From: Lacticaseibacillus kribbianus
GTDB taxonomy: Bacteria > Bacillota > Bacilli > Lactobacillales > Lactobacillaceae
Assembly: GCF_020180945.1 (NCBI RefSeq)
Contig: NZ_JAIPUL010000001.1
Location: 186,001 to 250,000 of the forward strand
DNA length: 64,000 bases
Direction of reading: 5' to 3'
Below are positions 33,210-34,932 of the stretch, in pieces. The first letter of the stretch is position 1, and each line of letters starts with the position of its first letter. Both the position numbers and the translations under genes were made by a program. The notes below the pieces were generated by a model, which was given only the letters and a program-made list of their open reading frames with translations, did not search any database and was not told where the DNA came from.

Positions 33210-33333
33210 CCAGGGCGGAGCAGGGCGCACTTAGCCGGTCGGCTAGCGTAAGCCTGGCGCTTGGGCCGCACTTTGGCCCGAGAGCCGGGCTTAGCTGGAC
33301 GCACCGACGTTGCCCTGCGGAGCCCGACGATAA
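33210..33333 (+). repeat. Intergenic hairpin repeat, unit 1 of a tandem pair
   Basis: A 124-base unit starting CCAGGGCGGAGCAGGGCGCA. It folds on itself: CAGGGC near its start faces GCCCTG near its end, GTCGG faces CCGAC, AAGCC faces GGCTT, and the core GGGCC-GCACTT-GGCCC forms the tip. It is nearly identical to the following unit. Confidence 0.85.
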
Positions 33334-33455
33334 CCAGGGTGGAGCAGGGCGCACTTAGCCGGTCGGCTAGCGTAAGCCTGGCGCTTGGGCCGCACTTTGG
33401 CCCGAGAGCCGGGCTTAGCTGGACGCACCGGCGTTGCCCTGCGGAGCCCGACGAT
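33334..33455 (+). repeat. Intergenic hairpin repeat, unit 2 of a tandem pair
   Basis: Repeats unit 1 with only a few changes (CCAGGGTGGAG at the start, ACCGGCGTTGCCC near the end). The pair lies between ccpA and the lexA promoter. Beyond it, 33456-33570 shows no gene. Confidence 0.85.
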
Positions 33456-34262: not shown

Positions 34263-34308
34263 ACGGCCGCCTGTCTCGCAATGTGCGAGGTGGGCGGCCG
34301 TGTTTTTT
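34263..34308 (+). terminator. Intrinsic terminator of lexA
   Basis: ACGGCCGCC (34263-34271) pairs with the GGCGGCCGT arm ending at 34301, with an inner CTCGC/GCGAG stem, followed by a run of T. Confidence 0.88.
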
Positions 34309-34374
34309 TATTCCGGGCCGAATCGCGCCGTGACGGCGCTTGGAAAACTTTTTTCGCCGCACGAGGCTTAATGT

Positions 34375-34403
34375 TTGACGGGAAAAGTTACCGGCGTTAT
34401 GAT
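34375..34403 (+). promoter_or_regulatory. Strong promoter of the non-coding RNA
   Basis: TTGACG (34375-34380), a 17-base spacer and TATGAT (34398-34403) give a near-consensus housekeeping promoter. There is no protein gene downstream on this strand, so it drives the RNA at 34410-34932. Confidence 0.75.
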
Positions 34404-34409
34404 GCCCTC

Positions 34410-34932
34410 AGATGATCATCTTAGGGCGGGACGGCAGCTCAAAGCCACGGCTGTTGCAGTAGTCACCACCCGGGGAACGGTCAACGGGTCGCCCCGTTAG
34501 TACCCCACCCTTACCAAGCCGGACGTGTATCGCCACCCGGCTTTCAAGTGAAATCGCTTTAGTGTAACTCCCGGTATTAGTTGAGGGAGACACCAGGGAC
34601 AAAGACTGCCACCCCATGGCCGCACCGCCGACTCGCCAACCCGCACCGCGGGGCAGCCGCGACGAGCCGGAGACCGTGGGCTTGTTCAACCGTGTCATCG
34701 CAAGCGCCACCGCGATGGCCAGATCAGATTCACCATCACAGCAGCAAAGGGCCAAGGCCACCGCGAAGCACAAGCGCGGTGGCTTCGGCGCGGCCGCCAA
34801 ACCGGGTCACACAGCAGAACAGGCAAATCGGGGCAGGCACACCACACGGCGTGCCTGTTCGCGTCTCTCGCCCCGCAGCAACGCGAAGTGGCCGGCACGC
34901 CTCCAGGTAGGGGACGTGCCGGCCACTTTTTG
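34410..34932 (+). ncRNA. Probable large structured non-coding RNA, about 520 nt, class unknown
   Basis: It has its own strong promoter, no convincing reading frame and a very strong terminator. Pairings seen along it include AACGGG/CCCGTT near 34475-34500, AAGCCGG/CCGGCTT near 34515-34545, GTGT-CTCCC/GGGAG-ACAC near 34560-34595, GCCACCGC/GCGGTGGC near 34755-34785 and CAGGCAC/GTGCCTG near 34832-34858. I could not fit it to tmRNA, RNase P RNA, SRP RNA or a known riboswitch. The size and ornate folding recall the large RNAs found in lactobacilli (GOLLD, ROOL), but I cannot confirm membership. Confidence 0.6.
34886..34931 (+). terminator. Intrinsic terminator of the non-coding RNA
   Basis: Arms AAGTGGCCGGCACG (34886-34899) and CGTGCCGGCCACTT (34915-34928) pair perfectly over 14 bp and are followed by a T run. 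The facing permease gene on the minus strand ends 9 bases away and may share it. Confidence 0.92.

Follow-up and report, generated by a model that had tools for sequence, protein, structure and literature searches.

Here we report that an RNA gene located just after lexA in Lacticaseibacillus kribbianus is a member of a new family of structured RNA genes. The gene lies in the window, the whole stretch of 64,000 nucleotides analyzed here (positions 186,001–250,000 of contig NZ_JAIPUL010000001.1). The family is almost certainly real, and a divergently transcribed gene of one protein family, which is found at eight of its 73 loci, likely encodes a partner with which the RNA works. From sequence comparisons, we give an about even chance to the view that the copy in the window is the RNA half, lacking the protein gene, of a new ribonucleoprotein (RNP) element made of two parts, whose RNA units would be spread and maintained by the particle.

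The preliminary description of this DNA, made from the letters alone, had pointed to a promoter, a strong fold, the lack of a convincing reading frame, and a terminator, and all four were found where it had placed them. The near-consensus promoter after lexA consists of TTGACG (34375–34380), a 17-bp spacer, and TATGAT (34398–34403), with 10 of 12 consensus matches. The predicted transcript is 526 nt long and its folding z score is -3.66; none of 100 shuffled sequences equaled its fold. The 14-bp terminator stem (34886–34899 paired with 34915–34928), followed by a T run, was read from the window sequence, and its 15-nt loop exceeds the 8-nt loop limit of the terminator scan, which therefore did not list it. 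The conserved RNA body spans about 34409–34790. The tail from this body to the 14-bp terminator is peculiar to the window copy; at the equivalent point, the other copies are closed by different terminators. The observation in the window is more than chance, because further copies of the stretch exist in the genome and the paired positions covary from copy to copy.

The 566-nt window stretch gave 13 blast pieces in the L. kribbianus genome (G000). Among 60 genomes, including this one, blast matches occurred in three: L. kribbianus itself, the sister species L. parakribbianus (strain YH-lacS6, G010, many copies), and G013, where the match was a chance match to coding sequence. At E <= 0.001, a covariance model of the 5' half (R1) hit two of the 30 Lacticaseibacillus genomes searched, with 13 matches in L. 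kribbianus and 53 in L. parakribbianus, and a model built on diverse copies (R2) gave 14 and 58 strong matches, respectively. In 16 other congeners, R2 had no match with E below 0.1, and no RNA unit was found by covariance model in the 28 other Lacticaseibacillus genomes tested. Under stricter filters, with six candidates scored per genome, R2 detected only L. kribbianus and L. parakribbianus among 397 genomes of the family, and only L. kribbianus among 398 genomes of the class, a sample that evidently does not include L. parakribbianus. In total, 73 loci were obtained, comprising 53 A, 2 B, and 4 C copies in L. parakribbianus (59) and 9 A and 5 B copies in L. kribbianus (14). The number 59 is a minimum, because a contig end truncates a fifth C copy. 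In addition, the starts of L. parakribbianus contigs C2 and C6 and the ends of contigs C3 and C14 fall in or near RNA units, so that the copy number of this species is underestimated.

From the predicted start to the T run of the terminator, the A copies measure 373–460 nt (46 of the 58 intact copies were measurable by script, the window copy not among them), the B copies 414–417 nt in L. kribbianus and 528 nt in L. parakribbianus, and the C copies 629–631 nt (three of the four measured). Three A copies of L. kribbianus are about 95% alike, yet they have differing 3' tails. In the four C copies, similarity is sharply bounded by a CGAGC(A/T)TAAAA box and the terminator, and the flanks are unrelated; a CGAGCTTAAAA box without an RNA unit behind it was also seen (L222, G010:C29:28324). 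A palindrome close to TACTTTGCNNTRCAAAGTA stands just after the terminator in all seven B copies (L121–L124 and L157 in L. kribbianus; L151 and L152 in L. parakribbianus). In L123 and L151, a second palindrome of this kind precedes a PadR-like gene, so named from sequence reading.

RNAalifold analysis of 18 copies gave 65 pairs, with two-sided changes at 33 of them. A 49-pair structure, derived from 59 A rows within the very alignment that served to test it, was paired in 90.0% of the cells over 73 rows (70 distinct), vs. 74.2% in shuffled and 38.5–46.9% in slid alignments, and the slide control leans in favor of the structure because of this origin. Over the same rows, two-sided changes were found at 36 of the 49 pairs, and the covariation score was 0.458 vs. 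0.190. A long-range helix that covaries in the A copies is not kept in the B and C copies. Covariation for a common secondary structure, as expected of a structured RNA, is present across the copies. Together with the promoters described below, it strongly supports the earlier designation of the element as a large structured non-coding RNA gene.

The pattern TTG(A/C)C, 17 bp, TA(n3)T was found in 69 of the 71 copies having a 5' flank by an anchored search favoring the 17-bp spacing, and in 60 of 71 by a free scan. These counts omit L065 and L092, which are cut by contig ends. The promoter region is missing in L120 and L086 (first bases also gone), the latter lying at a contig start. Further upstream, GC at -44/-43 occurs in 52 of 69 copies vs. 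4 of 40 control promoter-like sites (p = 2e-11), and an A-rich segment at -41 to -36 in 57 of 69 copies vs. 5 of 40 controls (p = 4e-13). The trinucleotide AGC is present in 40 of 69 copies (2 of 40 controls) and the full AGCA in 6 of 69 (1 of 40). According to PMC2801614, the Spx-dependent promoter of Bacillus trxB has AGCA at -45 to -42 and an A-rich segment at -41 to -36. The upstream boxes of the RNA units resemble this layout, but the full AGCA is found in just the six copies. The L. kribbianus genome encodes one ArsC/Spx-family protein, which scores as Spx.

The gene of the partner protein is transcribed divergently from the RNA. A tblastn search over the 73 loci found it at the same eight loci only and not in the window, and a promoter motif common to the partner genes is present at exactly these eight. 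The protein is basic and about 500–580 aa long, with K+R exceeding D+E in all 10 sequences. No credible match to it was obtained in Pfam, NCBIfam, PHROG, or PADLOC, nor was a nuclease or transposase domain detected in it. L. suihuaensis encodes two proteins related to it. The predicted fold consists of two barrel-plus-helix modules with OB-fold neighbors such as PriB, SSB, and uS12; the protein is probably nucleic-acid-binding. Exactly one protein-bearing copy exists in eight of the 11 subfamily-and-genome classes, the other copies being RNA only, and random placement put eight protein genes into eight different classes in 2143 of 100000 trials. The window copy lacks the protein gene, and a protein-bearing copy of the same subfamily is present elsewhere in the L. 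kribbianus genome. The partner gene seems disrupted at two of the eight loci: in L123 (2942–3715 and following) it is split between two frames, and in L064 (922–2409) it is off frame near its end.

The gene upstream of the RNA unit is co-directional at 52 of the 63 loci where it was called (66 loci) and, in a second pass over 71 loci, at 54 of 70; a terminator lies between the two in 33 of the 54. At the four C copies and at the protein-bearing loci, the unit and the upstream gene point away from each other. At L153, a tRNA gene (2399–2471) stands on the same strand shortly before the C copy. Eight of the 14 L. kribbianus copies share their intergenic region with an L. parakribbianus copy; the strands agree in six cases and are opposite in one, and the remaining case was seen from one side. 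RNA identity is 59–70% at the six same-strand sites and 83–98% among paralogs within a genome. The partner proteins at shared sites are 39% (L113/L066) and 45% (L119/L064) identical, and the flanks 68–94%. At these sites, divergence of both the RNA and the protein greatly exceeds that of most flanking genes. The lexA site of L. parakribbianus carries no RNA unit, and there have been recent bursts of copying among the units. Neither genome has a reverse transcriptase (RVT_1; present in 11 of 30 congeners) or a Y1 transposase (present in 4 of 12 tested). Neither terminal inverted repeats nor a target duplication were seen by eye in the four C copies, one empty site was not alignable, and DDE, tyrosine, and serine recombinases were not searched.

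Table 1. Features of the RNA gene and its surroundings (window coordinates)
Feature	Position	Strand	Basis
lexA intrinsic terminator stem-loop, upstream of the RNA gene	34263..34301	+	18 pairs, then T run
Upstream stretch common to three other copies of the same genome	34304..34362	+	By eye (L001, L002, L003, L005); blastn pieces of L002, L003, and L005 extend that far
Upstream box GAGGCTTAATGT with G(-44) C(-43), possibly an Spx/alpha-CTD-like site	34363..34374	+	GC counts vs. control sites; site definition from PMC2801614
Promoter TTGACG-17-TATGAT	34375..34403	+	Promoter scans
Conserved structured RNA body, A type, subfamily 2; start placed from the promoter	34409..34790	+	Copy alignment, covariation
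5'-end hairpin AGAU-GAUC-AUCU	34410..34421	+	Sequence reading and prediction; paired variants in other copies
Match of covariance model R2 (5' half), G000:C1:220418-220601	34418..34601	+	120.6 bits, E 8.9e-31
Multibranch domain with CCC/GGG closing, long-range helix, and conserved ACCAGGG	34508..34598	+	Structure from copy alignment
Conserved 3' hairpin GGCC..GCCACCGCG..CGCGGTGGC..TTCGGCG	34750..34790	+	Copy alignment, RNAalifold
9-bp hairpin with poor T tail, at the terminator place of other copies	34832..34859	+	Sequence reading
Terminator hairpin (14 bp) and T run; possibly shared with the converging transporter gene	34886..34931	+	Sequence reading

Elsewhere in the window, a different GC-rich dispersed repeat, with a unit of about 125 bp, occurs twice in tandem at 33210–33455; it has dozens of matches in L. 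parakribbianus (G010) and is absent at the orthologous place there.

ROOL and GOLLD are large elaborate RNAs of unknown function, occurring as single units in Lactobacillales and borne by phages or prophages, as described in PMC12286853. The preliminary description had considered either one of these or a new class, and the latter has held up. The new RNA is likewise large and elaborate and occurs in single units in Lactobacillales, but it has no match in Rfam, GOLLD and ROOL models included, is chromosomal, has 14 and 59 copies in the two species, and is in some copies paired with a protein gene. In the window, the Rfam search gave no match at gathering score and only implausible ones at E <= 10; GOLLD, ROOL, and OLE were absent from the matches at gathering (window) or relaxed thresholds. 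No phage or plasmid record matched the RNA unit, the pattern of the 3' hairpin occurred in no viral contig, and the neighboring genes are chromosomal. GOLLD and ROOL often lie near tRNA genes; among the new units, the C copy L153 follows one. A further hallmark of GOLLD, ROOL, and OLE is an RNA-only homo-oligomer. Despite its size, its elaborateness, and the occurrence of GOLLD and ROOL in Lactobacillales, it is hardly credible that an RNA with no Rfam 15, phage, or plasmid match belongs, as a diverged form, to a known class of large RNAs (GOLLD, ROOL, or OLE). OLE RNA has protein partners, to judge from reference titles in PMC12286853. The new RNA resembles it as a large structured RNA with a likely protein partner, but has no Rfam match, and its partner belongs to a different, unmatched protein family. 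Mobile RNA–protein systems such as IscB with omega RNA, IS110 with bridge RNA, and satellite group II introns combine a protein-bearing element with RNA-only copies served in trans. The present system differs in that neither genome has a reverse transcriptase or Y1 transposase and that the partner has no detected nuclease or transposase domain. BOX- and REP-type repeats also form many dispersed intergenic copies, but each new unit comes with a promoter and a terminator of its own, and its 400-nt fold covaries.

A full RNA unit consists of the upstream box, the promoter with its 17-bp spacer, an RNA of 370–630 nt with helices kept by compensatory changes, and the terminator. We propose that each subfamily has one master with the divergent protein gene, and the remaining copies would be RNA only. 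The protein may bind the RNA of its own subfamily and serve the RNA-only copies, which would rely on the master in trans. The main effect of the particle would be to spread and maintain the RNA units, which may insert mostly just after same-direction genes, and Spx may switch the RNA on under stress. Somewhat more hesitantly, and on slightly less than even terms, we suggest a new class of mobile RNP. It would pair a two-OB-fold protein with a structured RNA of 370–630 nt, the two encoded divergently at a single master locus in each subfamily and diverging together, and as many as about 20 RNA-only satellites per subfamily would be scattered over the chromosome and activated by a stress regulator.

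Several observations favor a rival reading. The complete promoter is kept in 69 of 73 copies, as is the fold; 52 of 69 copies have the Spx-like box, and the genome has a clear Spx; eight of the 14 L. kribbianus copies occupy intergenic regions shared with L. parakribbianus; and paralogs within a genome are 83–98% alike. These would fit a stress-induced RNP that serves the cell, its many copies providing dose and being kept alike by gene conversion. We regard such a host-useful particle as a serious possibility, though clearly short of probable: the family is limited to a few sister species, its RNA and protein diverge very fast, the copy number differs four-fold between the two species, and the protein gene is split between frames in L123 and off frame at the end in L064. 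On another reading, the divergent gene would be an unrelated neighbor and the RNA would act or spread alone; 65 of 73 loci have no protein gene, and the C copies multiplied without one. An RNA-only family of this kind is unlikely, since eight related genes, always divergent and with one common promoter motif, fall in eight different subfamily-and-genome classes.

The intergenic position of the units, and the abundance of another GC-rich repeat in both species, might suggest a non-functional repeat of the BOX or REP kind, which is very improbable in view of the two-sided changes at 36 of 49 pairs and the promoters in 69 of 71 copies. It is also hardly credible that the unit contains a protein or peptide gene, such as the 130-codon minus-strand frame (34408–34800) that spans the unit in the window copy. 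We rejected this candidate, since the frame is not kept in other copies and one-base indels separate close copies; no frame is kept across the 58 A-type copies, none being open over the first 100 codons in more than 11 of them.

No described family matches either the RNA or the protein of the proposed two-part element, and the two have the look of a self-contained RNA–protein system of masters and RNA-only dependants. This system might represent a novel route by which an RNA gene multiplies in a bacterial chromosome, or else a stress particle whose amount is raised through gene dose. With dozens of natural variants available in two small, non-pathogenic genomes, its structure, binding rules, and purpose can be tested directly.
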